A stretch of DNA of 62,744 nucleotides, from the NCBI RefSeq assembly GCF_001570405.1, contig NZ_BBYM01000003.1:1-62744 (forward strand). The letters are read 5' to 3'. A program made the position numbers and the translations under genes. The DNA is from Microtetraspora niveoalba. Lineage in GTDB: Bacteria > Actinomycetota > Actinomycetes > Streptosporangiales > Streptosporangiaceae. Shown here piece by piece: positions 34,577 to 54,028 of this stretch. Numbering within the stretch: the stretch's first letter is position 1; every line of letters begins with the position of its first letter. The notes under the pieces were generated by a model. The model was not told the origin of the DNA, searched no databases, and was given only the letters and a program-made list of their open reading frames with translations.

Positions 34577-36106
34577 TCAGTACTTCGGCACGATGCTGCC
34601 GGACCAGAGGTTGGCCGCGGCCTTGTAGACGCCGTACAGCTCGCCGTCGAAGTACGGCGAGACGCTGGTGTCGATGCGGTCGTTCTTGTCGGTGTCGGCC
34701 AGGCCGATGGTGACACCGTTCAGGTAGCCCAGGCGGCGGCCGTTGTTGTAGTTGAGCAGCCAGGACGAGCCGATCGCGCCCTCACCGGTGAAGGACGACT
34801 TGACGCCGAGGAGCTCCTCGCCCTTCACGGCCGGGGCCTGGACGGGGAACGTCTTGCCGTAGCTCCACTTGAGCGTCTTGCCGGTGTAGGCGTAGTTGCC
34901 GTCCGGGTGGGAGCCGCTCGGGTAACCGAAGACGTGGACCGGCTTGCCGACCTTCTGGTTGTACGCGAGGCCCTGACCGCCGACGTTGTCGCCGAGGCGG
35001 CCGACGTCGGTGAAGGTCCGCACGAAGTACCGGGTGACCTTGTAGTCCAGGTCGTAGTTCGCGCAGAACTCGCTGCGGTAGTACTCGTACTCGGCCGGAG
35101 TCTCACCCTCGGCGGGCTTGATCTCCTTCTTCCAGTAGTACTTCTTGCCGTCGGAGCTGGAGTAGGGGAGCGTCTTGCCCTTCACGGCGGGGTCGTCGGC
35201 GGTCAGCTTGGTGTCCTCCCGCTCGACCTTGCCGGCGATCTGCTCCTCCGCGCCCCCGGTGAGGCGGAGGTACTCGGCGCGGGTGACGTCGATCCAGTCG
35301 GACGAGCCGGGGGTGCCGTGCGCCACCACGTGGTCGGTGTCGACGATCTCCTCGATCTTGCCCTTGCCCCGGTGGGCGAGGGCCTCGGCCTTGGTCTCGT
35401 ACACCCGGACCTCGGGCTGACGCAGGTCCGGCGTGCGCGGGTACTTGCGGTACTCCGACTCGCTGACCTCGGCGCCGCTGTTGTCCGGCAGGACGCCGTT
35501 GTACACGGTGACGAACGCGTAGTCGCGGTCGCCGTCCTCGTACACGTCGTAGTCGTAGTGGGTGAAGGCCTGCTTGCCGACGTAGATGCCCCACGGGGTC
35601 TTGGCCTGGTAGTAGCCGGGGATGAAGACCCACTTGTCGAGCGTCTGGCTGTTGGACTCGGTGTCGTACACGCAGTGGCCGGCGGTGGCGACCAGGTTGC
35701 GGTAGCCGGACTGCACCGAGGTGGCCGAGCACCAGTGCGGCTCGCGGTCGGCGCCGATGAAGAACACCTTGCCCGTGGTCTTGGGCAGGTTCACGTTCTT
35801 CGACTTGGCGGTCGACTTCTTCTCGTCACCGATCGCCGGCACGAGGCCGGGCTTGGTGTCCGCGGCCGGGCCGCCCTTGGAGACGTGCTTGGTGACGACC
35901 TTGGTCTCCACGTCGTACGGCGTGGCGCCGATCAGGTTGGCCTTGTCCTCGCCGTACCAGAAGGCCGCGATCTCCCACGCGAGCGTCTGGCTCGCCAGGG
36001 GTTTGGCGGCGACGTCGCCGGAGGCGTGGGCGGGGGTGACCATGGCGGAGCCCAGGAGCCCGGCCGCGGCGACACCGCCGAGGGGGAGAAGCACACGCTT
36101 CTTCAT
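34577..36106 (-). CDS. Array gene A: secreted trypsin-fold pseudoprotease with large insert
   Basis: 509 residues. Signal peptide MKKRVLLPLGGVAAAGLLGS to AHA. The pro-region and fold are those of secreted serine proteases: PHWCSATSVQSGYRNLVATA, GHCVYD with His144, then DGDRDYAFVTVYNG with Asp195. The Ser region reads SFTGEGAIGSSW, so the catalytic Ser of GxSGGPW is Ile. Both cysteines flanking the active Ser in gene B are lost too. About 161 residues (204-364) are inserted before the GRLGDNVGGQGLAYNQ strand, in the second largest insert of the array. It is similar to the insert of D (ANYDLDYKVT). The start ATG has GAGGAGCGAAC upstream. Function unknown; probably a secreted binding protein, not an enzyme. 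Confidence 0.9.
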   Translation of the reverse strand: MKKRVLLPLGGVAAAGLLGSAMVTPAHASGDVAAKPLASQTLAWEIAAFWYGEDKANLIGATPYDVETKVVTKHVSKGGPAADTKPGLVPAIGDEKKSTAKSKNVNLPKTTGKVFFIGADREPHWCSATSVQSGYRNLVATAGHCVYDTESNSQTLDKWVFIPGYYQAKTPWGIYVGKQAFTHYDYDVYEDGDRDYAFVTVYNGVLPDNSGAEVSESEYRKYPRTPDLRQPEVRVYETKAEALAHRGKGKIEEIVDTDHVVAHGTPGSSDWIDVTRAEYLRLTGGAEEQIAGKVEREDTKLTADDPAVKGKTLPYSSSDGKKYYWKKEIKPAEGETPAEYEYYRSEFCANYDLDYKVTRYFVRTFTDVGRLGDNVGGQGLAYNQKVGKPVHVFGYPSGSHPDGNYAYTGKTLKWSYGKTFPVQAPAVKGEELLGVKSSFTGEGAIGSSWLLNYNNGRRLGYLNGVTIGLADTDKNDRIDTSVSPYFDGELYGVYKAAANLWSGSIVPKY

Positions 36107-36152
36107 GGGGGTTCGCTCCTCGCGCTGTCGTGGGACGCGCCTGCGTCCCATC

Positions 36153-36399
36153 CGTCAGTAAAGGGATGACGGGGACACTACAGCGAAGATCTCGACCCTC
36201 GAAGGCCCCTTCGGACCGGCCATCGGCTCACAGCTTCCTGTGATCCGGCCGTTATCGAACGGGTATTTTTCGGCTCACAGCAAGCTGGTACGTAATAGTG
36301 ATGTTTCCGCAGATAGGCAGGTAGAGACGGCATTTGGCCGGGATCCGGTACGCGAAGTCCGGAAAAGGTTGCATTTTTCGAATGTGATAACTGTCACAT
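36153..36399 (-). promoter_or_regulatory. Gene A upstream region: promoter block, leader motif, CRP-like site
   Basis: Fills most of the 518 bp to the next gene. Nearest the gene, at 36153-36168, is the array-wide 16-mer (CATCCCTTTACTGACG in sense), with a TGTAGTG -10-like element at 36176-36185. CTGCGGAAACATCA, the shared leader motif, is at 36299-36312 on the complement. A perfect CRP-like palindrome ATGTGATAACTGTCACAT is at 36382-36399, 284 bp from the ATG. A second palindrome TCACAG-CTTC-CTGTGA sits at 36228-36243. The rest (36400-36510) shows nothing distinctive. Confidence 0.75.
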
Positions 36400-36510
36400 C
36401 CCGCTGGGGCTCCATTCGTCCTGGGCGTCCCTCGGTGCTTGACCGTTTTGTCGGGGTTTCTCGGACTCGGTCGACCGGGTCGCCGGGGTCCGGGTCTCCG
36501 GGCATGAAAA

Positions 36511-36534
36511 GAGGCCCGGCCGGAGCCGGGCCTC
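36511..36534 (-). terminator. Terminator of array gene B
   Basis: GAGGCCCGGC and GCCGGGCCTC form a ten-base perfect stem with a CGGA loop about 90 bases past the gene B stop. Confidence 0.75.
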
Positions 36535-36624
36535 GGAAAGGGCCACAGGAAAGCGACGCCGCGGGGGCGACGTTCTCCGACGGGGACGCCCCGAAGGGGG
36601 TGTCACCCGGTCATCGCCCGGTCG

Positions 36625-37725
36625 TCACCTGGTCTCGGTGATGCCGATCGAGCCGTCCTTCTTGACCAGCGAGCCGGACCAGAGGGGGAAGGCCGCGCGG
36701 TAGACGCCGTACGTCTCGCCGTCGAAGTACGCCGAGGTGATCATGTCGCTGCGGTGGTTGCCGTCGGTGTCACCGCCGAGGCTGGTCACGCCGTTGATGT
36801 AACCGAGGCGACGGTTGCTGTTGTACTTGAGGATCCAGGGGCCGCCGGACGAGCCGCCGGTCATCGAGCACTTCAGGCCGATCTGCTCCTCAACCTTCAC
36901 GCTGCTCTCGACGATCGGGTAGACCGGCTTGCCGTAGCACCACTTCATCTTCTCGCCGGTGAAGACGTAGTTGCCGTCGTCGTGCGGCGCGGCCGGGTAG
37001 CCGAAGGCGTAGACGGGCTGGCCGACCTTCTGGTTGTACGCGAAGCCCTGGCCGCCGGCGTTGGAGCCGAGCGAGCCGAGGTCGACGAAGACGTCCTTCT
37101 TCGCGTCGTACCCGATGCCGTTGTAGACCGTGACGAACGCGTAGTCGCGGTCGAGGTCCTCGTAGACGTCGAAGTCGTAGTGGCTGAAGGCCTGCTTGCC
37201 GATGTAGACGCCCCAGGGCGCCTTGCCGTCGTAGTAGCCCGGGATGAAGACCCACTTGTCCGCGGTCTGGCGGTTGCCGTCGATGTCGTAGACACAGTGG
37301 CCGGCGGTGGCGACCAGGTTGCGGTACTGCGACTGGATCGCCGAGGCGGAACAGGCGTAGAGCTCGTTGTCGACGACGAAGAACGCGCGGCCCACCGTCT
37401 TGGGCAGGTTGACGTTCTTGGACTTGCCGGCGGACGTCTTCTCGTAGCCGATCGCGGGCACGACGCCGGGCTTGCCGTCCGCGGCGGGTCCGCCGGTGGA
37501 GACGTGCTTCGGCACGCGCTTGTGCTCGGCGCCGTACGCCTTGGCGGCCTTGAGGTTGGCGCCGCCGTCGGCGATCCAGAAGTCCATGATGTCCGCGGCG
37601 CTGGCCGGGGAGGCCAGCTTGGCCTTGGACACGGTCGGCGCCGCAGTGGCGGGGGTGACCAGTGCGGCGGCCATGAGGCCGGTGGCGGCGAGGCCGCCGA
37701 GGGGGAGAAGCAGACGCTTCCGCAT
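36625..37725 (-). CDS. Array gene B: secreted trypsin-like serine protease, intact triad
   Basis: 366 residues; signal peptide MRKRLLLPLGGLAATGLMAA to TAA. The full triad is present: His143 (LVATAGHCVYD), Asp194 (LDRDYAFVTVYNG) and Ser293 (SMTGGSSGGPW). Four Cys fit two disulfides: C125-C144, shared by all members, and C263-C286 flanking the active Ser, found only here and in K. The loop that is expanded in other members is only about 11 residues here (IGYDAKKDVFV). This is the closest member to an ordinary secreted V8/trypsin-like protease and probably active and autocatalytically processed. ATG 37725 has a GGAGCGAAC site. The short 123-bp gap to C still holds the array promoter block. Confidence 0.93.
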   Translation of the reverse strand: MRKRLLLPLGGLAATGLMAAALVTPATAAPTVSKAKLASPASAADIMDFWIADGGANLKAAKAYGAEHKRVPKHVSTGGPAADGKPGVVPAIGYEKTSAGKSKNVNLPKTVGRAFFVVDNELYACSASAIQSQYRNLVATAGHCVYDIDGNRQTADKWVFIPGYYDGKAPWGVYIGKQAFSHYDFDVYEDLDRDYAFVTVYNGIGYDAKKDVFVDLGSLGSNAGGQGFAYNQKVGQPVYAFGYPAAPHDDGNYVFTGEKMKWCYGKPVYPIVESSVKVEEQIGLKCSMTGGSSGGPWILKYNSNRRLGYINGVTSLGGDTDGNHRSDMITSAYFDGETYGVYRAAFPLWSGSLVKKDGSIGITETR

Positions 37726-37772
37726 GAGGGGTTCGCTCCTTGCGCTGATGAGGGCCGCTACTGCGCCCCTAT

Positions 37773-37803
37773 CGTCAGTAAAGGGATGGTAAAAAACTAC
37801 AGC
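37773..37803 (-). promoter_or_regulatory. Gene B promoter block
   Basis: The array 16-mer is at 37773-37788, and GTTTTTTACC precedes it. The -10-like TGTAG is at 37797-37802. There is no room for the CRP-like site: only 123 bp separate gene B from gene C. A TTCAGGA/TCCTGAA inverted repeat (37809-37831) follows, perhaps a weak end for gene C. Confidence 0.65.
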
Positions 37804-37848
37804 ACCCATTCAGGAACCCCTATGTCCTGAAATATGCGGAGCGGTTTG

Positions 37849-39024
37849 TTACAGAATGTTGATCTCGTTCGCGCCGTCGCGGAAGGCGCCGGCGGGCACC
37901 GCGCCGGACCGGATCTTCCGGGCCGCGACATAGACGCTGTAGAGCTCGCCGTCGAAATAGGGCGAGACCGCCGAGCCGCCGGAGGTGGCGATCGTGACAC
38001 CGTTCAGGTAACCCAGGCGTCCGGCCTTGCGGTAGCCGATCAGCCAGGACGATCCGTCGTTCGTACGGGACGACTTCAGGCCGAGCAGGTCGTCCGCGCG
38101 GAGGGCCGGATCCTGGAGCCGGAACGTGGCGCCGCGCGCCGGACGCCCGGAGGGCCCGAACACGACGGTCCTGCGGCCGACCTCCTGGTTGTATGCGAGC
38201 CCCTGGCCGCCCACGCCGTCCGCCAGGCGACCGCCGTCGACCAGCCTGACCCGTCCGGAGGCGCGCGAGGGCTGCGGCGTGAGGCCGTTGTGCACGGCGA
38301 CGAACGCGTAGTCGCGGTCGAGGTCGCGGTACGTGGCGAAGTCGTGGTGCGTGAACGCCTGCTTGCCCACGTAGACGCCGAAGGGGAGCGCGTCCGGCGC
38401 GTAACCGGGGACGAAGATCCAGTTCTTCATCGGCGCGTCGCCGTTCTCGGCGTCGAAGGCGCAGTGCCCGGCGGTGGCGACGAGGTTGCGGTGCGGGGAC
38501 TGGACCGAGGTGCCCGAGCACCAGTGGGGCTTGCCGTCGGACGCGAGGAAGAAGACCCTTCCCGTGGTCGCGGGCAGGTTGATGTTCTTGGAGACGGCGG
38601 CCCCGTTCCCGTCCTGCCCGGTCTTGTCGTCACCGCTCTTGTCGGGGGCGCGTGTGCCGGGCGTGCCTGTGTCGGGCGCGCCGCCTTCCGGCCTGTCGCC
38701 CGAGGGCTTTCCCTCGGCCGGCTTCCTGTCGGCCGGCCGTACGCCTCCCGGCCTGCCGTCCGCCGCCGCGCCGCCGCGCTCCGCCTGCCGGGCGGTCACC
38801 TTCGTCCGCAGCGTGTACGGGGTCGCCGCGGTGAGGGCGCGGCCGTCTCCGCCGAGCCAGTACGCCAGCACGGAGGGCACCTGGGCCTCCCCGGCCAGGG
38901 GGCGGGTGGCGGTGATGTCGTACGCGTGCGCGGGGGAGAGCGGGCCGGACACGACGAGCGCGGCCGGACAGAGCAGTCCGGCGATGGCCGCCGTACGCCT
39001 GGCGGCCAGGACGACGCGCTTCAC
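37849..39024 (-). CDS. Array gene C: divergent secreted pseudoprotease
   Basis: 391 residues; signal peptide MKRVVLAARRTAAIAGLLCP to SPAHA. The fold is kept (PHWCSGTSVQSPHRNLVATA, GHCAFD, DLDRDYAFVAVHNG), so His and Asp are present. The Ser position reads SSRTNDGSSW, with Asp in place of the catalytic Ser. The second Cys pair is absent. The distinguishing part is a long Pro/Gly/Asp-rich, unordered stretch before the protease domain (about 85-145, with KPSGDRPEGGAPD and TPGTRAPDKSGDD). It lacks the 16-mer promoter in recognisable form (a degenerate copy is near 39072). Most diverged of the array together with K. Confidence 0.88.
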   Translation of the reverse strand: MKRVVLAARRTAAIAGLLCPAALVVSGPLSPAHAYDITATRPLAGEAQVPSVLAYWLGGDGRALTAATPYTLRTKVTARQAERGGAAADGRPGGVRPADRKPAEGKPSGDRPEGGAPDTGTPGTRAPDKSGDDKTGQDGNGAAVSKNINLPATTGRVFFLASDGKPHWCSGTSVQSPHRNLVATAGHCAFDAENGDAPMKNWIFVPGYAPDALPFGVYVGKQAFTHHDFATYRDLDRDYAFVAVHNGLTPQPSRASGRVRLVDGGRLADGVGGQGLAYNQEVGRRTVVFGPSGRPARGATFRLQDPALRADDLLGLKSSRTNDGSSWLIGYRKAGRLGYLNGVTIATSGGSAVSPYFDGELYSVYVAARKIRSGAVPAGAFRDGANEINIL

Positions 39025-39165
39025 GGACGCTCCTTGCGCTCTCTGCGTGGACGCCCGCAGCGCCCCTTGCCCTGGTAAAGAGGAAGATTACCGTCGTTTT
39101 GCCATGGCATGGGACAGCAGCGGTGCGAGCCGGGCCATGCGTCCCGGATGGGGCCCGGAAACGAC

Positions 39166-39197
39166 GTGGGGGCCCGGCGCCGCCGCCGAGCCCCCAC
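39166..39197 (-). terminator. Probable terminator of array gene D
   Basis: GTGGGGGC (39166-39173) and GCCCCCAC (39190-39197) form an eight-base stem with a G+C-rich 16-base loop, about 85-115 bases past the stop of gene D and before gene C's upstream region. Confidence 0.6.
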
Positions 39198-39280
39198 GCA
39201 TGATGTTCCCTGCTGAGGAATATCCCTTTACCTCAGGGTCCTGTCCCGTTTCCGGGCCGGCGTCCCGCGCCGGAACCAGG

Positions 39281-40969
39281 TCAGACGATCTTGCCGGACC
39301 AGACGTTGGCGGCGATCTTGTAGACGCCGTAGGTCTCACCGTCGAAGTACGGGGAGATGCTGGTGTCGTAGCGGTTGTTGCCGTCGGTGTCGGAGACGCC
39401 GATGGTGACACCGTTCAGGTAGCCGAGACGGCGGCCGTTGTTGTACTTCAGCAGCCAGGAGGAGCCGATGGCGCCCTCGCCCGTGAAGGACGACTTCATG
39501 CCCTGCAGCTCCTCGCCCTTGACGGCCGGAGCCTGGACCGCGAAGGTCTTGCCGTAGGCCCACTTGAGGGTCTTGCCGGTGAAGGCGTAGTTGCCGTCCG
39601 GGTGCGACCCGCTCGGGTAGCCGAAGACGTAGACCGGGCTGCCGAGCTTCTGGTTGTAGGCCAGGCCCTGACCGCCGACGTTGTCGCCGAGACGGCCGAC
39701 GTCCTTGAGTGCGACAGAGAAGTACCGCGCGGTGACCTTGTAGTCCAGGTCGTAGTTCGCCCAGAAGGTCCGCTTGAAGTACTTGTACTGCTTGGACTGC
39801 TGGCCGCCGCCGTTCCCGCCGCCGTTGCCGTTGCCGCCACCGGGGTTCCCGCCGCCGTTGCCACCACCGTGGCTTCCACCGCCGTTGCCGCCGCCGTGGC
39901 TTCCACCGCCGCCGCCACCACCGGGGTTGGTGGGCTGCTCCTTGATCTTCTCCTGCGAGACGGTCTTGTCGCCGCCGCCGCCCTTGATCTCCTTGCGGAA
40001 GAGGAAGGTCGCGCCGTCGGCGCTGGTGTAGGAGTCCACGTCGCGGCCGTAGGCGTCCTTCGTGATCTCCACGGGGGTGGAGGCGCCGGTGCCGGTGGTC
40101 CACGGCCCGTCGCCCGTCAGGTCCTTGACGGCCGGGTTGAGGCGCTTGAACTCGTCGACCTTGATGTTCTCGACCTTCTTGGACTCCGCGGTGCCCGGCG
40201 CGACGACGTCGCCGGTGAGGACCGCCTCGATCCCGATGTGCGAGTACGCCGTGGTCTTGTCGTTCTCGATCCTGGCCTTGTCGGTCTTGGCCAGGGCCTC
40301 CGTCTTCCAGGTCTTCTCGTAGCGGTCCCGACCGGCGTCGGTGGGCAGGACGCCGTTGTACACGGTGACGAACGCGTAGTTGCGGTCGCCGTCCTCGTAG
40401 ACGTCGTAGTCGTAGTGCGTGAAGGCCTGCTTGCCGACGTAGATGCCCCACGGGGTCTTGCCCTGGTAGTAACCCGGGATGAAGACCCACTTGTCGAGGG
40501 TGGCCTTGTTGGACTCGGTGTCGTAGACGCAGTGGCCGGCGGTGGCGACCAGGTTGCGGTAGTTCGCCTGGACCGAGGTGGCCGAGCACCAGTGCGGCTT
40601 GCGGTCGGCGCCGATGAAGAACACCTTGCCCGTGGTCTTGGGCAGGTTGACGTTCTTCGACTTGGCGGTCGACTTCTTCTCGTCGCCGATGGCGGGCACG
40701 ACGCCGGGCTTGCTGTCGGCCGACGGGCCGCCCTTGGAGACGTGCTTGGCGACGACCTTGGTCTCGACGTTGTACGGCGTGGCGCCGATCAGGTTGGCCT
40801 TGGCCTCGCCGTACCAGAAGGTGGCGATCTGCTTGGCGGCCATGTTGGTGTTGGCCAGGATGACGGTCGGAACCTCGTCCTTGGGCACGGCCGAAGCCGG
40901 AGTGGCCAGCCCGGCGGCCAGCAGACCCGCGGTGGCGACGACGCCACCGAATGCAAGAGTGCGCTTCAT
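39281..40969 (-). CDS. Array gene D: largest secreted pseudoprotease, Gly-rich insert
   Basis: 562 residues; signal peptide MKRTLAFGGVVATAGLLAAG to PASA. His is kept (TAGHCVYD), but the catalytic Asp is Asn (DGDRNYAFV) and Ser is Ile (TGEGAIGSSW). The insert is the largest of the array, about 215 residues. It holds a helical/charged part, then a Gly/Asn/His-rich linker of about 45 residues (GGGSHGGGNGG units), then an ANYDLDYKVT strand shared with A. A linker in this place suggests that the insert folds separately and is displayed. The start has weak complementarity (AAGGAACAACCC). The upstream 628 bp carry the array leader. Confidence 0.9.
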   Translation of the reverse strand: MKRTLAFGGVVATAGLLAAGLATPASAVPKDEVPTVILANTNMAAKQIATFWYGEAKANLIGATPYNVETKVVAKHVSKGGPSADSKPGVVPAIGDEKKSTAKSKNVNLPKTTGKVFFIGADRKPHWCSATSVQANYRNLVATAGHCVYDTESNKATLDKWVFIPGYYQGKTPWGIYVGKQAFTHYDYDVYEDGDRNYAFVTVYNGVLPTDAGRDRYEKTWKTEALAKTDKARIENDKTTAYSHIGIEAVLTGDVVAPGTAESKKVENIKVDEFKRLNPAVKDLTGDGPWTTGTGASTPVEITKDAYGRDVDSYTSADGATFLFRKEIKGGGGDKTVSQEKIKEQPTNPGGGGGGGSHGGGNGGGSHGGGNGGGNPGGGNGNGGGNGGGQQSKQYKYFKRTFWANYDLDYKVTARYFSVALKDVGRLGDNVGGQGLAYNQKLGSPVYVFGYPSGSHPDGNYAFTGKTLKWAYGKTFAVQAPAVKGEELQGMKSSFTGEGAIGSSWLLKYNNGRRLGYLNGVTIGVSDTDGNNRYDTSISPYFDGETYGVYKIAANVWSGKIV

Positions 40970-41016
40970 CTTGGGTTGTTCCTTGGTCTGTCGTGGGACG
41001 CCCCATGCGTCCCATC

Positions 41017-41396
41017 CGTCAGGGAAGGGATGAAACGCAACTTATGTCGCAGCACTTGGAGTCCACTTGGAGCCCGTTGGTGACTCACGGGCGAAGTGGT
41101 TGCGCAACGGGACCCGACCGATGACGGGAGGCGTTCCGGGAATGCCGTCCGGCGTCTCCGCTCGGCGCCGGATCACGAAAGCGTTTGTCGGCGTGGGGAT
41201 GCGGCGGTGTTTCCGGTGCTTTTCGGGTGCTTTTCCGGTGCCGCGAATGTTCAGGCGGTTCGTCACCGCGCCGGAACGGCGACCGATGGCTGATCGGCAC
41301 GGGTGCCGGGAGAAAAGGGGGAAAAGACGACCGAAGCTCGCAGGAGGGCGGAGTCGGGGCCCGCGCTGTATTTCTCGTCATATGACCGAGATCACG
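41017..41396 (-). promoter_or_regulatory. Gene D upstream region: promoter block and weak CRP-like site
   Basis: The 16-mer variant CATCCCTTCCCTGACG is at 41017-41032, followed by the GGGACGC hairpin. Further upstream at 41381-41396 is TATGACCGAGATCACG, a CRP-like site with one mismatch in each arm, 419 bp from the ATG rather than about 270. The stretch 41033-41380 otherwise shows no gene; a frame at 41067-41534 (plus) has no codon pattern, signal or family. Confidence 0.55.
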
Positions 41397-41409
41397 CGCG
41401 ATGCCTCCG

Positions 41410-41485
41410 GAGTTCCGTGGTGCGGATCGAGTTCTGTGGTGCGATCGGAGTTCTGTGGTGTGGCCGGAGTTCTGTGGTGTGGCCG
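41410..41485. repeat. 19-bp tandem repeat x4 (3' side of gene E)
   Basis: Four units with the core GAGTTCTGTGGTG begin at 41410, 41429, 41448 and 41467. The last two are identical, the first two differ by a few bases. It lies between gene E's terminator and gene D's weak CRP-like site. Confidence 0.85.
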
Positions 41486-41497
41486 GAGCGGAAATGG

Positions 41498-41529
41498 CAC
41501 AGGGCCCGGCTGGAGAGCCGGGCCCTGTG
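41498..41529 (-). terminator. Terminator of array gene E
   Basis: A 14-base perfect stem (CACAGGGCCCGGCT and complement) with a GGAG loop, about 70-100 bases past the stop. Near identical terminators follow F, G, H, I and J. Confidence 0.8.
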
Positions 41530-41547
41530 GGTGACGTGATTGTGAGG

Positions 41548-41564
41548 CAGGGTTTGGACCCCTG
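41548..41564 (-). repeat. 3' UTR element of gene E (CAGGGGTCCAAACCCTG)
   Basis: In sense orientation this 17-mer has CAGGG and CCCTG arms that can pair. It lies between the stop and the terminator. The same 17-mer occurs once after F (43360-43376), twice after G (45646-45662 and 45669-45685) and once after I (49335-49351). In G and I the arms extend to a ten-base stem. Confidence 0.8.
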
Positions 41565-41597
41565 TCTCGGGGGTCGCCGTGTTTCCGCGAGCGGAGA

Positions 41598-42878: not shown

Positions 42879-42924
42879 GGGGGGAACTCCTTGCGCTGTC
42901 GTGGGACGCCTCTTGCGCCCCATG

Positions 42925-43152
42925 CGTCAGTAAAGGGATGGCGGAAACATACAGCCGCGATCTTCCGGCGTGGAAGCGACTTCGACGGGGTCGTTTCGGC
43001 CCCCGGATGGCGTGACGATTCCGTTATCTTTCCGGGGAAGTCGGTACTTTGCCCGCCAGATGACATACGCGCAGATCAAGAGTGAAGCGGTGGCTTTGGT
43101 GCTGATGTGACCGCCGGACCGCAGATCTTGAATGATGTGACCTAAATCACAT
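42925..43152 (-). promoter_or_regulatory. Gene E upstream region: promoter block, leader motif, CRP-like site
   Basis: 16-mer at 42925-42940 with TGTATGTTT -10-like at 42946-42955 and AGATCGCGG next upstream (42956-42964). The leader motif GATCTGCGCGTATGTCA is at 43061-43077. A perfect CRP-like palindrome ATGTGA-N6-TCACAT lies at 43135-43152, 265 bp from the ATG. Beyond it, to 43210, no feature is visible. The GCGGGGC-type hairpin GGGACGC is below the 16-mer. Confidence 0.75.
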
Positions 43153-45626: not shown

Positions 45627-45719
45627 CGATGAAGCAGGCATAGGTCAGGGTTTGGACCCCTGTGAGAGCAGGGTTTGGACCCCTGCTCTCGTGAACCGCC
45701 GTGTTTCCGCGAGCGGAGA

Positions 45720-46940: not shown

Positions 46941-46985
46941 GGGGAAACTCCTTGGGCTGTCGTGGAGCACTTCCTGCGCTCCAGA

Positions 46986-47229
46986 CGTCAGTAAAGGGAT
47001 GGCCAAAACATACAGCGCGATCTTGGCTCGAAAGCCCTCTGAGTCGACCCTTTTTGGGAGGGTGAAACGACGAGATCATCCCGTTATCCAACTGACTCTG
47101 TGAAACCTGACGTGTCAGGGGTTTGCTTCCCTTGTTTTCGCTGCTCCCGGCCCCGTCCCCGGATTCCTTCGGCGAAGCCTCGGGAGGGAGGTGTTCCGGC
47201 GGCGTCCCAACAATGTGGTGCGGATCACA
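46986..47229 (-). promoter_or_regulatory. Gene G upstream region: promoter block and CRP-like site
   Basis: 16-mer at 46986-47001, TGTATGTTTT next to it (47003-47014), AGATCGCGC upstream of that. TGTGGTGCGGATCACA at 47214-47229 is a CRP-like site with one arm mismatch, 281 bp from the ATG. I could not find the CTGCGG leader motif here. 47230-47449 shows no other feature. Confidence 0.65.
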
Positions 47230-47449
47230 ATGAATCCAGGGCACCGTATCGGTGCGACCCGCGTCTAAGCGCGGCTTCGGTCGGCCGTCCGTTGTCGTTC
47301 CGAATCGACATGATCACTCAGTGCGATGATTTGCGGCCGAGGATGCCGCCCGGGCCGGGCCGCGTCGGTTGCGATTTCCGGAAGCCGTTCAGAACGGATT
47401 CGGTGTGCGGCGTGCCGGGGCTTCGCCATGCCGGCTTCTGAAACGCCAA

Positions 47450-47476
47450 AAAGGCCCGGCTGGCAGCCGGGCCTTT
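47450..47476 (-). terminator. Terminator of array gene H
   Basis: AAAGGCCCGGCT and its complement (12 pairs) with a three-base loop, about 40-65 bases past the stop. Confidence 0.8.
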
Positions 47477-47514
47477 CTGAAACGAGCTAATCGACGAACG
47501 AGCCAGCCGATGAA

Positions 47515-48771
47515 CTAGCTGGGCCGGGGCGACTCGGTCGCGCGGGGCAGAGCCGGCGACTCGAACGGCGTCGCGATCGAGCCGGACCAGAGGTTCTTGG
47601 CCGCGGAGTAGACGCCGTACAGCTCACCGTCGAAGTACGGCGAGAAGCTGGTGTCGTAACGGTTGTTGCCGTCGGTGTCGGAGACGCCGATGGTGACACC
47701 GTTCAGGTAGCCGAGACGGCGGCCGTTGTTGTAGTTCACCAGCCACGCCGAGCCCAGCGAGCCCTCACCGGTGAAGGAGGACTTGGTGCCGACGAGCTCC
47801 TCGCCCTTGATGGCCGGGGCCTGGACCGCGAAGGTCTTGCCGTACGTCCACTTGAGGGTCTGGCCCGAGAACGCCTGGTTGCCGTCCGGGTGCTGCCCGC
47901 TCGGGTAACCGAACACGAAGACCGGCTTGCCGACCTTCTGGTTGTAGGCGAGACCCTGCCCACCCACGTTGGCGCCCAGAGCACCGGCGTCCTGGAACTT
48001 CCAGACGTAGTACCGCTTGCCCTCGTGGCAGTAACGGAACTCCTCGTAGTTCCAACCCTTGAACCACTTCGGGAAGTTGTCGTAGGTCTCCTTGGAGACC
48101 TCCTGCCAAGCGCCGGGCACGTCGGAGAACTTCTTGATCCCGTCGTGCGGCATGTTGAGGCCGTTGTAGACCGTGACGAACGCGTAGTCGCGGTCGCCGT
48201 CCTCGTACACGTCGTAGTCGTAGTGCGTGAACGCCTGCTTGCCGACGTAGATGCCCCACGGGGTCTTGCCCTGGTAGTAGCCGGGCACGAAGACCCAGTT
48301 GTTCATCGTGGCGGCGTTGGACTCGGTGTCGTACACGCAGTGACCCGCGGTCGCGACCAGGTTCTTGTACGCGGACTGCACCGAGGTGGCGGTGCACCAG
48401 TGCGGCTTGCCGTCAGCGGCCCGGAAGAACACCTTGCCGGTGGTCTTGGGCAGGTTGACGTTCTTCGACTTGGCAACGGTCTTCTTCTCGTCGCCGATCG
48501 CCGGGACGACGCCGGGCTTGCTGTCCGCCGCCGGGCCGCCCTTGGAGACGTGCTTGGCGACGACCTTGGTCTCGACGTTGTACGGCGTGGCGTTGATCAG
48601 GTTCGCGCGGTGCTCGGCGAACCAGTAGCCGACGGTGTTCCAGGCCGCCATGCCGTTGGTGGCGAGGGCGTCGCTGGCGACGTCGCCGGCGGCCTGAGCC
48701 GGGGCCGCCAGGCCGGAGGCCAGCAGGCCGGCGGTGGCGACGAGGCCACCGAAAGCCACAATGCGCTTCAT
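47515..48771 (-). CDS. Array gene H: secreted pseudoprotease, Ser lost, C-terminal tail
   Basis: 418 residues; signal peptide MKRIVAFGGLVATAGLLASG to PAQA. His and Asp are kept (TAGHCVYD, DGDRDYAFV), Ser box TGEGSLGSAW, so Ser is Leu. The insert is about 55 residues with WQEVSKETYDNF and a Cys (FRYCHEGKR) unusual for the array. Unlike others it does not stop at WSGSIA; a Pro/Ser-rich tail of 18 residues follows. Start ATG 48771, ribosome-binding AAGGAG. Upstream has the full regulatory set. Confidence 0.92.
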   Translation of the reverse strand: MKRIVAFGGLVATAGLLASGLAAPAQAAGDVASDALATNGMAAWNTVGYWFAEHRANLINATPYNVETKVVAKHVSKGGPAADSKPGVVPAIGDEKKTVAKSKNVNLPKTTGKVFFRAADGKPHWCTATSVQSAYKNLVATAGHCVYDTESNAATMNNWVFVPGYYQGKTPWGIYVGKQAFTHYDYDVYEDGDRDYAFVTVYNGLNMPHDGIKKFSDVPGAWQEVSKETYDNFPKWFKGWNYEEFRYCHEGKRYYVWKFQDAGALGANVGGQGLAYNQKVGKPVFVFGYPSGQHPDGNQAFSGQTLKWTYGKTFAVQAPAIKGEELVGTKSSFTGEGSLGSAWLVNYNNGRRLGYLNGVTIGVSDTDGNNRYDTSFSPYFDGELYGVYSAAKNLWSGSIATPFESPALPRATESPRPS

Positions 48772-48816
48772 GGGGGAACTCCTTGGTCTGTCGTGGGACG
48801 CCTCTTGCGTCCCATG

Positions 48817-49059
48817 CGTCAGGAAAGGGATGCAGGAAAGATAGCGCAGTCGATCACCCATAAGAAGGGGATAAAGGGCCTTCTCCGGGAGGTCCGCCGC
48901 CTTTCTTTTCGGCTGACACGGGGAAAGAGTCCCTGTGGTCCTTCCGGCGCCGGATGGGTGACGCATTCGCGCAGCTAGTCCCCCTGGAACGCCCTTCTTT
49001 CGGGCTTTGTCGTCTCCGCGAACAGAGTTTTGTCAGCATTTCCTGTGAGGCAGATCACA
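48817..49059 (-). promoter_or_regulatory. Gene H upstream region: promoter block, leader motif, CRP-like site
   Basis: 16-mer variant CATCCCTTTCCTGACG at 48817-48832, leader motif CTGCGCGAATGCGTCACC at about 48958-48975, and perfect CRP-like TGTGAGGCAGATCACA with CC/GG extension at 49042-49061, 280 bp from the ATG. From 49062 to 49286 there is nothing else I can name. Confidence 0.75.
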
Positions 49060-49286
49060 GGATTGTCGGGTCGTTGACCATAAGTGGAAAGGACTGTTAT
49101 CGGACGGCGTCGCCCAACCGCCGGGCCGGGTTTACTCCCGGCTCCGGAAACTTTTGCGAAAATAAGCGGGAGGAGGCGGGTAGCGCAGTTCCCGGGGGAG
49201 GGGTGTTGACTCGATCAGGCCGGCCGAGTTCGGTGACAGGAGCCGTTTCGGGCCCTCCGGGAAAGCGGCTCATCCCGGAAATGTGA

Positions 49287-49314
49287 AAGGGCCCGGCTGG
49301 AGAGCCGGGCCCTT
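49287..49314 (-). terminator. Terminator of array gene I
   Basis: AAGGGCCCGGCT and complement (12 pairs), loop GGAG, about 75-100 bases past the stop. Confidence 0.8.
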
Positions 49315-49386
49315 CGATGAAGCAAGGGTGAGAGCAGGGTTTGGACCCCTGCTCTCATTGAATCACCGTGTTTCCGCGAGCGGAGA

Positions 49387-50658
49387 CTAGGCGATCGAGC
49401 CGGACCAGAGGTTCTTGGCCGCGGAGTAGACGCCGTACAGCTCACCGTCGAAGTACGGGGAGAAGCTGGTGTCGTAGCGGTTGTTGCTGTCGGTGTCGGA
49501 GACGCCGATGGTGACACCGTTGAGGTAGCCGAGGCGGCGGCCGTTGTTGTAGTTCACCAGCCAGGAGGAGCCGAGGGCGCCCTCACCGGTGAAGGAGGAC
49601 TTGGTGCCGACGAGCTCCTCGCCCTTGATGGCCGGGGCCTGGACCGCAAAGGTCTTGCCGTACGTCCACTTGAGGGTCTTGCCGGAGAACGCCTGGTTGC
49701 CGTCCGGGTGCTGGCCGCTCGGGTAGCCGAACACGAAGACCGGCTTGCCGACCTTCTGGTTGTAGGCCAGACCCTGGCCACCGACGTTGGCGCCCAGAGC
49801 ACCCGCGTCAGCGAACTTGAGGACCTTGTAGACCCACTTGCCGTCCTTCTGGTAGGCGTAGTGGGGAAGGACGTGCTCGTCGTGGTACGCCTTGAAGGTG
49901 GCCTCGTCGACCTCCTGGAAGCCGACGTACTGCTCGAGCTCGGCCCACTTCTTGTTCTCGATCAGGTCCCACACGCCGGAGAAGCCGTCGTGCGGCATCT
50001 TCAGGCCGTTGTAGACCGTGACGAACGCGTAGTTGCGGTCGGCGTCCTCGTACACGTCGTAGTCGTAGTGCGTGAACGCCTGCTTGCCGACGTAGATGCC
50101 CCACGGGGTCTTGCCCTGGTAGTAACCCGGGACGAAGATCCAGTTCTCGAGGGTGGCCTTGTTCGACTCGGTGTCGTAGACGCAGCTACCCGCGGTGGCG
50201 ACCAGGTTCTTGTAGGTCGACTGGATCGAGGTGGCGGTGCACCAGTGCGGGTTCTTGGCCTTGGGGTACTTGTGACCGCGGGGGCCCTTCACCCACTCGA
50301 AACCGTCGGCGAAGAACACCTTGCCCGTGGTCTTGGGCAGGTTGACGTTCTTCGACTTGGCGGCGGCCTTCTTCTCGTCGCCGATCGCCGGCACGACGCC
50401 CGGCTTGCTGTCGGCCGCGGGCCCGCCCTTGGAGACGTGCTTCGCGACAACCTTGGTCTCCACGTTGTACGGCGTGGCGTTGATCAGGTTGGCGGCGTTC
50501 TCCGCGAACCACAGCGCGGCGATGTTCTTGGCGTTGATGCCGGTGGCGGCCAGCGGCTTGCTGGCGACGTCGCCGGTGGCCTGGGCCGGGGCGGAAAGGC
50601 CCGCCGCCAGCAGGCCGGCGGTGGCGACGAGGCCACCGAAGGCGAGAGTGCGCTTCAT
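49387..50658 (-). CDS. Array gene I: secreted pseudoprotease, all three catalytic residues lost
   Basis: 423 residues; signal peptide MKRTLAFGGLVATAGLLAAG to PAQA. His is Ser (TAGSCVYD), Asp is Asn (DADRNYAFV), Ser is Leu (TGEGALGSSW). Insert about 64 residues with FQEVDEATFKAY. It also has an extra stretch just after VFF (DGFEWVKGPRGHKYPKAKN) that lengthens the loop before HWCTATS, a second variable position. Its 3' flank matches E and G. Start ATG 50658 after AAGGAG. Confidence 0.92.
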   Translation of the reverse strand: MKRTLAFGGLVATAGLLAAGLSAPAQATGDVASKPLAATGINAKNIAALWFAENAANLINATPYNVETKVVAKHVSKGGPAADSKPGVVPAIGDEKKAAAKSKNVNLPKTTGKVFFADGFEWVKGPRGHKYPKAKNPHWCTATSIQSTYKNLVATAGSCVYDTESNKATLENWIFVPGYYQGKTPWGIYVGKQAFTHYDYDVYEDADRNYAFVTVYNGLKMPHDGFSGVWDLIENKKWAELEQYVGFQEVDEATFKAYHDEHVLPHYAYQKDGKWVYKVLKFADAGALGANVGGQGLAYNQKVGKPVFVFGYPSGQHPDGNQAFSGKTLKWTYGKTFAVQAPAIKGEELVGTKSSFTGEGALGSSWLVNYNNGRRLGYLNGVTIGVSDTDSNNRYDTSFSPYFDGELYGVYSAAKNLWSGSIA

Positions 50659-50702
50659 GGGGAACTCCTTGGGCTGTCGTGGAACGCATCTTGCGTCCCA
50701 TG

Positions 50703-50929
50703 CGTCAGTAAAGGGATGGAGGAACCATACAGTCGCCGCAGTCCCCTTAAAACCGGCATAAGTCGTCATTTGTCGGCACGCTGAGTCCCCGCGCGTGAAC
50801 CTGGTCGCGACGAAGGGGGTGAAGGGGTGGCCATCGCCGCAGCTAGGCGATCACGGGACCTTCTTTCGCGCTGACGTATCTGCCATTCCTCTGGTTCCCC
50901 GCCATGGGTTACATGTGACGCGAATCACA
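50703..50929 (-). promoter_or_regulatory. Gene I upstream region: promoter block, leader motif, CRP-like site
   Basis: 16-mer at 50703-50718 with TGTATGGTT next upstream, leader motif CTGCGGCGATGGCC at about 50829-50842, and the perfect CRP-like TGTGACGCGAATCACA at 50914-50929, 263 bp from the ATG. 50930-51165 holds no recognisable feature. Confidence 0.75.
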
Positions 50930-51165
50930 CATGTTGTGTTCAGGTTGAGCTCTCGCGCCCGCTCCCTTTGACCTTCCCTTGAAGCCCTGTCAAGCCTTCT
51001 ACCTGCGTGTTTTCGCATGACCCCTGACTTCGATCTGTCATGCGCGCGCGTGGAGCGACGGGGCCGGTACCCCTGTCGTCGAAATTCGCAGAATCGACCT
51101 AATCGGACAGCGACGCTTTGTGGACGGCGGAGGTTTACCGGCCAAGTCTATAAATTTAATGAAAA

Positions 51166-51192
51166 AAGGGCCCGGCTCGGAGCCGGGCCCTT
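51166..51192 (-). terminator. Terminator of array gene J
   Basis: AAGGGCCCGGCT and complement (12 pairs) with a CGG loop, 15-40 bases past the stop; A/T-rich on the far side. Confidence 0.8.
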
Positions 51193-51206
51193 CTCTCGGG
51201 CGGGTG

Positions 51207-52379
51207 TTACGCGATGCTGCCGGACCAGACGTTGGCGGCGGCCTTGTAGATGTCGTAGAGCTCACCGTCGAAGTACGGCGAGACGCTGGTGTCGATCCGG
51301 TTGTTGCCGTCGGTGTCCGAGACCCCGCTCGTGACACCGTTCAGGTAGCCGATCCGACGGGCGCTGCTGTAGTTGAGCAGCCACGCCGAGCCCGAGGAGC
51401 CCTCGCCGGTGAACGAGGACTTCACGCCCATCAGCTCCTCGCCCTTCACCTCGGGAGCCTTGGCGGCGAACGTCTTGCCGTAGCTCCACTTGAGGGTCTT
51501 GCCGGAGAACGCGTAGTTGCCGTCCGGGTGCGACCCGCTGGGGTAGCCGAAGACGTAGACGTTCTTGCCGAGCTTCTGGTTGTAGGCCAGGCCCTGGCCG
51601 CCGACGTTGTTGCCGAGGCTGCCGACGTCGGTGAACTTGACGACGTAGTACTTGCCGCCCTTCGACTTGCGGATGTACGGGCTGTACTTGTCGTAGGTGG
51701 CCTTGTTGACCTCCTGCCAGTTCCACTCCGCCGCGTTGAACCAGCTCGTGCCCGAACCGGCCTTGATGCCGTTGTAGACGGTCACGAACGCGTAGTCGCG
51801 GTCGCCGTCCTCGTACACGTCGAAGTCGTAGTGCGTGAACGCCTGCTTGCCGACGTAGATGCCCCAGGGCGCCTTGCCCTGGTAGTAGCCGGGGATGAAT
51901 ACCCAGCGGTTGAGGGTGGCCTTGTTCGACTCCGTGTCGTACACGCAGTGGCCGGCGGTGGCGACCAGGTTGCGGTACTTCGCCTGGAGGGACGTGGCCG
52001 TACACCAGTGCGGCCTGCCGTCGGAGCCGGTGAAGAACACCTTGCCGGTGGTCTTGGGCAGGTTGACGTTCTTGGACGTGCCGGATCCGCCCTTGCCGAT
52101 CGGCGAGACCGTGCCGGGTCGGCTGTCGGCCGACGGACCGCCCTTGGAGATGTGCTTCGCCACCACCTGCGTCTCGTACGGCGAGGCGTTGACCAGGTTG
52201 GCGGCCTTCTGGTTCAGCCAGAAGGCGACGACGTTCTTGGCGGCGATTCCGCTGGAGGCCAGCGGGTCGGTAGCCGTGTCACCAGCGGCCTGAGCGGGTG
52301 CCACGAGCGTGCTGCCGATGAGGCCGGCGGCGGCGAGACCCCCGAGAGGGAGGACCAGGCGCTTGACTCGGGTGTTCAT
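51207..52379 (-). CDS. Array gene J: secreted protease-like protein, Ser possibly retained
   Basis: 390 residues; signal peptide MNTRVKRLVLPLGGLAAAGL to PAQA. His (TAGHCVYD) and Asp (DGDRDYAFV) kept. The Ser box is TGEGSSGSAW: aligned on Trp, Ser is in the nucleophile position but the GGP after it is GSA, and the flanking disulfide is gone. It could be weakly active or an intermediate on the way to the pseudo forms. Short insert of about 45 residues with WQEVNKATYDKY. Start ATG 52379 preceded by AAGGAGCTC. Confidence 0.92.
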   Translation of the reverse strand: MNTRVKRLVLPLGGLAAAGLIGSTLVAPAQAAGDTATDPLASSGIAAKNVVAFWLNQKAANLVNASPYETQVVAKHISKGGPSADSRPGTVSPIGKGGSGTSKNVNLPKTTGKVFFTGSDGRPHWCTATSLQAKYRNLVATAGHCVYDTESNKATLNRWVFIPGYYQGKAPWGIYVGKQAFTHYDFDVYEDGDRDYAFVTVYNGIKAGSGTSWFNAAEWNWQEVNKATYDKYSPYIRKSKGGKYYVVKFTDVGSLGNNVGGQGLAYNQKLGKNVYVFGYPSGSHPDGNYAFSGKTLKWSYGKTFAAKAPEVKGEELMGVKSSFTGEGSSGSAWLLNYSSARRIGYLNGVTSGVSDTDGNNRIDTSVSPYFDGELYDIYKAAANVWSGSIA

Positions 52380-52420
52380 TGAGCTCCTTGCGCTGTCGAT
52401 AGACGCGGGAACGTCACATC

Positions 52421-52649
52421 TGTCAGTAAAGGGATGGTCAAAACACTACATCCGAGATCTTGCGGCTCCCGGCCGTGTCGGGGATGGTTTCTCGCGCCGA
52501 GGCGTCGTGATATTTCCGTGATTTTCCACAACTCCTGTCACTTACGAGATCATTTCGTGATGTATCCGCAGGTGATCGAGTGGTGACGGCACGAGGTTCG
52601 GGCCCCTCCCGCAAGATCATGTAGACGTCGAGTGTGATGCAAATCACAC
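52421..52649 (-). promoter_or_regulatory. Gene J upstream region: promoter block, leader motif, CRP-like site
   Basis: 16-mer variant CATCCCTTTACTGACA at 52421-52436, TGTAGTG at 52444-52451, AGATCTCGG upstream, leader motif CTGCGGATACATCACG at about 52557-52571, and perfect CRP-like TGTGATGCAAATCACA at 52634-52649, 262 bp from the ATG. The remainder to 52880 has only the direct repeat beside gene K. Confidence 0.75.
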
Positions 52650-52884
52650 ATCACGTGCGGCACCGTTCCGTTCATGATCACGTCTAATTTGCCCGGAAAG
52701 GAAGGAATTTCTATCCGGCGGGTTCCGGTCCTCTCGACTCGGGGGATCGGGGCGGGCCGAGAAGGGCGCCCGCGGTTGTCGCCGTCTGGCGGGGGCTTCC
52801 ACGGACACTCCCGGGACCCGCGCGAGGGCCGGCTCCCCTTCGATCTCTGGAGCGCCGGATGCGGCCACGAGGTGGCCTGGCGAG

Positions 52885-52931
52885 GCTCGCGCGCAGACGC
52901 GGTACCGCGGTGGCGGTGCCTCCGCGCGAGC
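52885..52931 (-). terminator. Hairpin at the end of gene K
   Basis: GCTCGCGCG and CGCGCGAGC (nine pairs) enclose 29 bases that include a smaller CGCGGTACCGCG palindrome. The stem touches the gene K stop codon. Next to it, a copy of the last coding bases (ACGAGGTGGCCTGGCG) is repeated at 52866-52881. Confidence 0.55.
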
Positions 52932-54028
52932 TACGAGGTGGCCTGGCGGGCGGCCTGTAGGTAGACGCGCTGCGTGACCGTGTTGAAGTAGGGCGTCGAG
53001 ACCGCGTCGAGCTGGCCGTCGCCGTTCAGGTTCCAGGTCAGGCTCGTCACGCCGTTGATCCAGCCGGTGCGCTTGACGCTGTCGTAGCCGATCACCCACG
53101 GGCCGCCGCTCGCGCCCGAGGTGAAGTTGCAGCCGGCCAGCCGCACGCCGTGCTCGAGCTGCCAGGTGGGCGCGCTGACCGTCTTCTTCTCGGTCGTGTT
53201 CGAGCAGGTCTTGACGTCCTGGCCGGTGTACGGCCGGCTCCCGTCAGGGTGGGCGCCCGCGGGGTAGCCGAAAACCTGCACCTTCCGCCCGGTGGGCTTG
53301 TTCCAGGCGAAGTGGAACGCGCCGACCCGGTCCTCGAGGAGCCCGACGCTGACCGAGCGGTACTTCACCGTGCCCGCGTCGGTGTACGGCTGCCACGTGA
53401 ATCCCGGGTAGACCGTGACGAACGCGTAGTCGCGGTCGAAGTCGCCCTGTCCCTGGAAATCCTGCTGCATGTAGAGCGTGTGCCCCACGAAGATGCCCGC
53501 GCTCGTGGCCCCGTTCGCGTACGACGGGATGAAGATCCAATTCTCGACCGGCTTGTCCCTGCCGAGAGAGTAGGCGCAGTGCCCGGCCGTCGCGACGAGG
53601 TTCTTGTGCGCCGAGTGCACCGCGGAGGCGGAGCACCAGTACTCCTTGTCGTCGACCTTGAAGAAGACCTTGCCCACCATGGGCGGCGTGTCGGGCGAGG
53701 GGGCGCTCGCCGAGGCGCCGAGGGGGAGCGTCGCGCTCCCGATCTCGGCCGACGACGTGGTCGCCGAGGTCGAGGGCGAGGGCTTGGTCTTCGGCTCGTA
53801 GCTGCTCGCCCGCTTCAGCCGATCGGGACTCCAGTACGACGCCACCCTGCGCATGTCCGCCTGCGTCGCGGCCAGGGCGTAGGAGCTGACGTCGCCCTTC
53901 AGGGTCTTCGGGGGAACGCCGGCGGTCACCGCCGCGGCCGGCGCGGCGGGCAGCGGAACAGAGAGCACGGCGACCGCGCTCGCCGCGGCAAGGCCGCCGA
54001 CGAGGCCGTGTGTGAGTCGCCGAAGCAC
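52931..54028 (-). CDS. Array gene K: secreted trypsin-like serine protease, intact triad
   Basis: 365 residues from GTG 54028 (GGAAGG upstream; ATG 54046 is the alternative but its own reading would place the site inside). Signal peptide to PAAPAAAVTA. Triad: His150 (LVATAGHCAYS), Asp200 (DFDRDYAFVTVYPG), Ser307 (NFTSGASGGPW). Four Cys (132, 151, 275, 300) fit the same two disulfides as B. It lacks the scaffold-specific GGQGLAYNQ block and has GAFHFAWNKPTGRKVQVFGY instead, so it is the most distant member, perhaps closest to the founder. Divergent from the SSI-like inhibitor gene, 204 bp away. Confidence 0.92.
   Translation of the reverse strand: MLRRLTHGLVGGLAAASAVAVLSVPLPAAPAAAVTAGVPPKTLKGDVSSYALAATQADMRRVASYWSPDRLKRASSYEPKTKPSPSTSATTSSAEIGSATLPLGASASAPSPDTPPMVGKVFFKVDDKEYWCSASAVHSAHKNLVATAGHCAYSLGRDKPVENWIFIPSYANGATSAGIFVGHTLYMQQDFQGQGDFDRDYAFVTVYPGFTWQPYTDAGTVKYRSVSVGLLEDRVGAFHFAWNKPTGRKVQVFGYPAGAHPDGSRPYTGQDVKTCSNTTEKKTVSAPTWQLEHGVRLAGCNFTSGASGGPWVIGYDSVKRTGWINGVTSLTWNLNGDGQLDAVSTPYFNTVTQRVYLQAARQATS

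Follow-up and report, generated by a model that had tools for sequence, protein, structure and literature searches.

A tandem array of secreted S1-type serine protease homologs, most lacking a complete catalytic triad, with a common 5' leader and a neighboring inhibitor gene in Microtetraspora niveoalba

We describe a tandem array of eleven genes encoding secreted S1/V8-like serine protease homologs, arranged head-to-tail and contiguously on the minus strand at positions 34577-54046 of a 62,744-nucleotide stretch of Microtetraspora niveoalba DNA (contig NZ_BBYM01000003.1; "the window" below means this whole stretch). Consistent with an initial annotation made from the sequence alone, all eleven open reading frames, here called A to K, are present and adjoin one another, the array end of 54028 given there reflecting a different start choice for K. 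The alignment of the eleven proteins also agrees with that annotation in finding a common signal peptide (the signal-peptide-like N termini were judged by eye), pro-region and two-Cys His box, and a DYAF strand is likewise common to them. The trypsin-like fold it proposed holds at the sequence level: a profile search matched, among solved structures, the serine proteases 3wy8 (E 1.5e-22) and 3cp7 (E 6.2e-21). A profile match to a ParB-like nuclease chain (5k5d, E 9e-5) was taken as spurious. At E<=1, Pfam assigned Trypsin_2 to six members, Trypsin to four, and no other domain to any of the eleven; the curated cut-offs were exceeded by B alone among seven proteins scanned (five of them from the window), and an NCBIfam scan of the eleven at E<=1 gave no match. 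Such an arrangement is not due to chance, because eleven paralogs stand head-to-tail and the arrays of relatives lie at the same neighbor gene.

A complete His-Asp-Ser triad is present in B, J and K and absent from the other eight, which we refer to as dead members. The initial annotation had singled out B and K as the only genes with the triad and a GxSGGPW motif, and residue by residue the alignment supports this: B (36625-37725) reads GSSGGPW, retains Ser214 and the second Cys pair, and has a 13-amino-acid linker and no insert, and K (52931-54046), a divergent relative of A-J, reads GASGGPW; judged by these motifs, both are probably active. J (51207-52379), left unclassified in that annotation, retains His, Asp, Ser195 and Ser214 inside the GEG..GS[SA]W loop of dead members (as GEGSSGSAW) and may be read as an intermediate form between enzyme and dead members. 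The nucleophile is lost, as had been noted, in A and C-I, through replacement of Ser by Leu or Ile or, in C, deletion of the loop; the earlier assignments of His loss (to Ser) in E, G and I, and of Asp to Asn in D, G and I, are equally accurate. The dead members are accordingly A (34577-36106, 509 amino acids, GEGAIGSSW), C (37849-39024, TNDGSSW), D (39281-40969, Asp to Asn and Ser to Ile), E (41598-42878, His to Ser and Ser to Leu), F (43410-44642, Ser to Leu), G (45720-46940, all three residues lost), H (47515-48771, Ser to Leu) and I (49387-50658, all three lost).

In a tree of 129 members, the GEG-type sequences, J-types included, and C form a single clade of 69 that adjoins the B-type genes (hereafter the dead clade). 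Counts of motif residues use this tree-defined clade in place of motif-picked sets of 58 and 42 sequences, and triad totals come from column-based tables covering all 129, motif parsing having left 21 of 129 unparsed. Within the clade, Ser195 has become Leu in 38, Ile in 17 and Met in three, is deleted in four and is still Ser in seven; the Ser214 position is Ile in 60, Ser in six, Ala in two and Met in one, and is Ser in 59 of the 60 rows elsewhere in the tree; and most members have lost the second Cys pair, 65 of 69 carrying Ser in the column of the Cys that precedes the nucleophile loop. The former Gly197 is Ser in all 69 (outside: Gly in 53, Ser in four, Ala in three). A column comparison found 21 columns that are nearly fixed in 58 dead-clade sequences and uncommon in 42 motif-intact sequences; both sets were picked by nucleophile motif, so that fixed columns inside the motif are partly such by construction, and the columns outside it (214, 294, 306, 311, 354 and 355 of the model) are free of that selection. 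We conclude that the former active-site loop of the main dead clade has been rebuilt with clade-specific residues. Separate losses of the nucleophile are found outside this clade (Asp in 15 members, the GADGGPW type, and Ala and Thr in one each), and parsimony places four changes of nucleophile state, seven of His and ten of Asp on the tree. The C-type genes, whose nucleophile loop is lost (window 38044-38064), sit on a long stem branch, yet have been kept in four Microtetraspora genomes. Complete triads occur in 49 of the 129 members, all of them in arrays (two to five in each of 15 arrays, 14 of which hold at least one incomplete member), and in none of 23 dispersed copies; all 23 are dead yet full-length or nearly so.

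One could envision that these proteins are still enzymes, working through a different catalytic set, e.g., the Ser two residues past the old nucleophile (GS[SA]W), or through a non-proteolytic chemistry. The occurrence of that Ser throughout the clade and in only 4 of 60 rows outside it would fit, as would the retention of His in 56 of 69 members (Ser in the others) and of Asp in 52 (otherwise Asn). However, G and I keep the same Ser having lost both His and Asp, as does E having lost His, and Ser214 has given way to Ile in most of the clade. Moreover, His and Asp states flip between near relatives (Ser/Asn in G of the window, His/Asp in its nearest relative, L022_5572), which is expected if catalysis no longer matters. 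We therefore regard an alternative chemistry as very improbable.

The dead members have not been left to decay. Pairwise maximum-likelihood (ML) estimates of omega, the ratio of nonsynonymous to synonymous rates (dN/dS), between species are 0.016-0.102 for the scaffolds of dead members and 0.015-0.026 for those of B, J and K, with likelihood ratios of 62-193 against an omega of 1 (20 of 21 pairs were computed, one lacking a motif match being left out, and some pairs, e.g., D, I and one dispersed pair, join nearest relatives that may not be orthologs). The scaffold of C is the least constrained of the set (0.09-0.10). The initial annotation had named a dN/dS near 1 for the pseudo members as a result that would weaken its case; for the scaffold the outcome is the opposite, which supports its proposal that the dead members are maintained, and we reject neutral decay on the strength of these values.

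In contrast to the scaffold, a segment inserted between the catalytic-Asp strand and the second barrel evolves fast in E (84 amino acids, 42015-42266), F (68, 43827-44030), G (64, 46137-46328), H (58, 47986-48159) and I (67, 49804-50004). Over five pairs, the ratio of nonsynonymous to synonymous differences per site (pN/pS) is 1.15 for this insert versus 0.22 for the scaffold (184.6 nonsynonymous and 38.4 synonymous differences versus 107.6 and 146.4; Fisher p 3e-20 for this contrast), at equal synonymous rates (0.203 versus 0.176 by pooled counting); amino-acid change is about sixfold faster in the insert, and gap columns number 40 versus 1. The inserts of A (164 amino acids, 35003-35494) and J (48, 51624-51767) are conserved between species (pN/pS 0.32 over four pairs), and those of two dispersed pairs and of D (218 amino acids with a Gly-rich stretch, 39698-40351) are intermediate (0.69), with a synonymous rate that is also higher. 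Mean identity among 44 members is 0.79 for the scaffold and 0.26 for the insert, and 36 short inserts are enriched relative to the scaffold in Trp (5.1% versus 2.6%) and charge (30% versus 17%). ML estimates of insert dS above 20 were left unused as an artifact of extreme codon bias and poor alignment, the expected codon identity of unrelated inserts being already 0.77.

Exchange among copies has also left traces. The scaffold of L023_15441 is nearest that of L023_13501 and its insert nearest that of L021_2654, a mosaic that makes some gene conversion likely, as far as such sequence comparisons go; an early idea, exchange of entire insert cassettes between genes, was dropped. Recent duplication or conversion is seen at L031:2311-6415, where two members are identical over the tree columns, and at L028:5234-10936, where three tandem members are near-identical. 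One might suppose from such recent duplicates, and from the resemblance of some copies to mosaics of others, that the dead genes are a passive by-product, functionless copies kept alive by tandem duplication and concerted evolution. This explanation is already disfavored by the scaffold omega far below 1 between species, by the persistence of one-to-one counterparts of A in three species and of C and J in four, by the intact length of the dispersed dead copies, and by a dead clade that is common to several genera, and we give it next to no credence.

The family extends well beyond this array. Elsewhere in the same genome we found six more full-length copies on five other contigs and one distant copy in two pieces. 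In a relatives sample of 60 genomes, the source genome included, 44 had a match at E<=0.001 and 15 at E<=1e-60; genome samples comprised one genome per species and were partly fragmented. A search of other Streptosporangiaceae, suggested by the initial annotation, found at least one match at 1e-60 in 106 of 250 same-family genomes, representing 24 of 68 sampled genera (seven candidates were scored per genome, copy numbers being lower bounds), and among 396 genomes drawn from the phylum, with four candidates scored per genome, there was no match at 1e-30 outside the source genome. The best 80 of 345 relatives were kept and gave 79 named loci, from Microtetraspora, Planotetraspora, Acrocarpospora, Microbispora, Herbidospora, Sphaerimonospora, Nonomuraea, Planomonospora, Streptosporangium, Thermoactinospora and a Streptosporangiaceae bacterium, genera that we take to belong to Streptosporangiaceae.

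On the A side of the array lies a plus-strand gene (33175-34506) that we take, by eye, to be malic-enzyme-like. In 14 of 15 genomes examined, a relative of this gene stands beside the array; its recurrence indicates vertical inheritance and led us to reject a recent origin from a mobile element. G+C content in 2-kb windows is 0.64-0.71 over the array (34001-54000) versus 0.67-0.74 before it (1-34000), although the locus looks vertically inherited. On the malic-enzyme side, nine of the 15 genomes have a conserved gene that resembles, by eye, a helix-turn-helix regulator (L025:421-1899 and eight other genomes); no Pfam family matched it over cut-off, and it was not found in the Microtetraspora loci. 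On the K side of the array, beyond the inhibitor gene described below, are a VapB-like antitoxin gene (just under the Pfam cut-off) and a PIN-domain gene (54946-55687, plus strand), relatives of the VapB-like gene adjoining the array in four genomes, the window included.

An alignment of the regions upstream of the eleven genes identified a common 5' element before A, B and D-J. On the minus strand these leaders lie at 36116-36170 (A, 75.7 bits under a covariance model of the element), 37736-37790 (B, 64.2), 40979-41034 (D, 72.2), 42887-42942 (E, 83.6), 44650-44705 (F, 83.2), 46948-47003 (G, 73.7), 48779-48834 (H, 80.2), 50665-50720 (I, 82.0) and 52384-52438 (J, 56.6); none was found at C or K. 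When up to two mismatches are allowed, the 8.47-Mb genome has 12 sites for the 16-mer CATCCCTTTACTGACG, of which 11 directly precede family genes and one falls at the end of a contig, and it has no site for the reversed pattern. With up to three mismatches the 16-mer precedes 74 of 135 family open reading frames in the fetched loci, among them B-type, GEG-type and GADGGPW-type genes, and was found at none of the K-types or C-types; the covariance model gave one weak match (30.4 bits) at the C-type gene of G001. In the predicted fold of the leader, an imperfect hairpin, CCUU pairs with AAGG of the Shine-Dalgarno sequence, which would mask the ribosome-binding site. Of the 74 leaders, 73 were long enough, 69 entered the full alignment and 41 were chosen for the covariance model: the 69 rows have 95.6% of cells paired and 5 of 17 pairs changed on both sides (a number reached by 15 of 500 shuffles; 4 of 500 for the covariation score), and the 41 rows have 96.3% paired and again 5 of 17 changed on both sides (0 of 500 shuffles; covariation score 6 of 500). 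Because the outer helix, which reaches onto the Shine-Dalgarno sequence, is almost invariant, it adds nothing to the covariation signal. In the relatives sample, the covariance model, which was trained on some of the sites it recovers, found 90 sites at E<=0.001 in exactly the same 15 of 60 genomes that match the family at E<=1e-60; of these sites, 88 are 5-39 nt upstream of a listed family gene, and the other two fit family members by eye. The leader is thus confined to this gene family in the genomes searched. No Rfam family matched it at cut-off, and a known Rfam leader was rejected on that ground. It is possible that the element is a DNA operator instead of an RNA element, but it runs into the ribosome-binding site, and we think that the leader may govern translation of the members that carry it.

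Many similar secreted copies under one common leader might also be expected of abundant structural proteins, such as a coat or matrix on hyphae or spores in which the pro-region of one unit docks in the cleft of the next. Conservation of the second half of the pro-region would be in keeping with this, being 0.85, about that of the barrels, in the 58 motif-picked dead-clade sequences and 0.40 in the 42 motif-intact ones, the latter being a more diverse set. The fast-evolving insert, however, fits poorly with assembly from identical units, and by eye we noticed no anchor or repeat, so that a structural role seems to us decidedly unlikely.

Head-to-head with K, and separated from it by 185 nt, is a plus-strand gene (54232-54687) for a secreted protease inhibitor of the SSI (Streptomyces subtilisin inhibitor) type. 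Like the SSI family it matches PF00720 (71.5 bits, cut-off 23.9; 5.9e-20) and 3ssi (3.4e-20), and its alignment to 3ssi shows four Cys and a CxxxY/F reactive region (reactive-site-like CPM-L); unlike the usual members of that family, it is divergently paired with a protease gene where a pseudoprotease array ends. PF00720 matches nowhere else in the genome. By distances read by eye, 11 of the 15 array genomes (G000, G001, G002, G003, G007, G008, G012, G015, G030, G031 and G034) have an SSI gene placed head-to-head with a family gene and no more than 0.9 kb from it; in the other four (G006, G018, G028 and G036) SSI is not at the array. In seven of the 11 this gene is the genome's only SSI, and the neighboring family gene has a complete triad in ten and Ser to Thr in the other. 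Among 18 further genomes, chosen from the family survey because arrays showed there, the SSI gene is within ~2.1 kb of a listed member in 12 and on another contig in six, all of genus g34. Overall, 15 of 15 array genomes have an SSI gene somewhere, versus 15 of 22 same-family genomes without strong family matches. The reactive-site residue differs between genera (M, L, H, R or A) among 11 array-linked SSIs compared (those of the window, L020, L022, L023, L025, L027-L030, L032 and L033), a change that may track the specificity of the neighboring protease.

The pairing of the genome's only SSI gene with K, its recurrence at most of the arrays, the more general presence of SSI genes in array genomes, and the complete triad of nearly all SSI neighbors could each be accounted for if the dead proteases were inhibitor buffers, binding SSI, or the protease inhibitors of competitors, as decoys and so setting the level of active K and B outside the cell. 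Canonical inhibitors are expected to touch the very parts of the active site that are changed in the dead clade, where a bulky Leu or Ile replaces Ser195, the loop has an extra residue and Ser214 is Ile. A decoy function also leaves the fast-evolving insert unexplained, and SSI is away from the array in 4 of 15 relatives and in 6 of the 18 further genomes. We consider this explanation unlikely.

The reading we favor, to which we would assign a probability of roughly 45%, is that the array encodes a co-regulated repertoire of secreted non-catalytic binders, each having a constant side and a variable one, and that this repertoire arose by expansion of a protease-SSI locus. The locus would have originated as a secreted S1 protease (V8/AL20-like) paired with an SSI-type inhibitor; K and B are probably still proteases, as their motifs suggest, and the head-to-head adjacency of the SSI gene suggests that the inhibitor probably keeps K and its counterparts in check. 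The B lineage gave duplicates that lost their catalytic motifs, stayed under constraint and may have been kept as secreted binding proteins; their rebuilt active-site loop could be where a single common partner docks, or simply a filled core. By S1 topology, an insert placed between the two barrels is expected to be located away from the cleft, and that of E-I would be the likely variable recognition surface; if the dead members have a binding or signaling role, that insert and the clade-specific loop are its candidate surfaces. By pairing the Shine-Dalgarno sequence, the leader would set the translation of the members carrying it together, and the repertoire might be used in interaction with competitors or surfaces.

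Several observations weigh against this reading. Of the 69 members of the dead clade, 56 keep His and 52 keep Asp, a retention beyond what a role without catalysis would require; dead members are missing altogether from one array (G028), and the only incomplete member of another (G034) is a Ser to Thr change. The pN/pS of 1.15 for the E-I insert is not significantly above 1 (p 0.38) and comes from a counting method that ignores codon bias, extreme here, so that diversifying selection is possible and relaxed constraint also compatible; moreover, the insert is conserved in A and J and largely so in a dispersed copy (L039), and its variability is not general. Support for the leader fold from single-sequence folding is weak (shuffled z -0.9 to -2.3), and our view of where the insert lies and how the cleft is formed draws on sequence and general S1 topology. 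Finally, a search of the genome for an umbrella-toxin core by way of the ALF repeat (PF03752) had no match but was uninformative, its control also matching nowhere, and UmbB, a component of the Streptomyces system compared below, was not searched for.

The SSI gene, the leader, the fast-evolving insert, the six extra full-length copies and the wide distribution are all new beyond the initial annotation, and the family offers several points of entry. Intact, intermediate (J) and fully dead members lie side by side, making the steps from enzyme to binder directly testable; pseudoproteases are naturally replicated on a large scale across 24 of 68 sampled genera of one family; the leader is a DNA-level marker for finding members that carry it; and the SSI gene provides a first candidate for a binding partner. 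If the loop is truly a recognition surface, these secreted bacterial proteins would constitute a natural scaffold for diversified binders.

The closest solved relatives of the array are the AL20-type proteases 3cp7 and 3wy8, which we presume to be V8-like. B shares their His box, DYAF strand and Cys positions and the motif CxMTGGSSGGPW; the dead clade, unlike these entries, which are single proteases, lacks the second Cys pair, Ser195 and Ser214 and carries an insert. Insect serine protease homologs, often with clip domains, offer a eukaryotic counterpart to these bacterial proteins: they too have the S1 fold without a complete triad, occur as many paralogs and are thought to act by binding, but we know of no leader or SSI gene of the array kind among them. 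RNA thermometers and other Shine-Dalgarno-masking leaders are imperfect hairpins that pair the ribosome-binding site, as the array leader is predicted to do, which differs from them in having no Rfam match and in its confinement to one gene family in the genomes searched. To our knowledge, pseudoproteases serving as conserved binding scaffolds are known from few bacterial systems. One of these is UmbA, a group of trypsin-fold pseudoproteases in the umbrella toxin particles of Streptomyces, of which two tested domains were inactive and which bind UmbB through the cleft and carry variable lectins (PMC11062931, PMC13274773). The remark in the initial annotation that it knew of no described array of this kind stands insofar as no paper on the array is among the literature matches listed, but the idea of trypsin-fold pseudoproteases used as binding scaffolds has a precedent in UmbA. 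No UmbA chain was among the solved-structure matches (E<=1, and E<=10 in a second search), the presence of 8W20/8W22 in that set being unconfirmed, and membership in UmbA by sequence was rejected on this basis. The variable part of UmbA is a C-terminal lectin, whereas the array proteins end at the second barrel and vary in an insert between the barrels. Umb loci hold UmbB/UmbC; a leader element and an SSI gene belong to the array locus. Because the array proteins show neither a detected sequence relation to UmbA nor a C-terminal lectin, we say by analogy that they may work like UmbA, not that they are UmbA. A more far-reaching proposal, which we put forward tentatively and consider rather doubtful, is that they form a previously undescribed actinobacterial interaction system, in which a repertoire of secreted pseudoproteases that combine a constant cleft for docking with a loop that diversifies lies next to an SSI-restrained active protease and is translated as a single regulon under a private RNA leader, one that no other gene in the genomes searched carries; this would amount to a family of variable binders with a dead protease as its scaffold, independent of UmbA though parallel to it. 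The array proteins and UmbA have in common secreted actinobacterial trypsin-type proteins without a complete triad (eight of eleven here), several paralogs per genome, and a conserved pseudoprotease part joined to a variable one.

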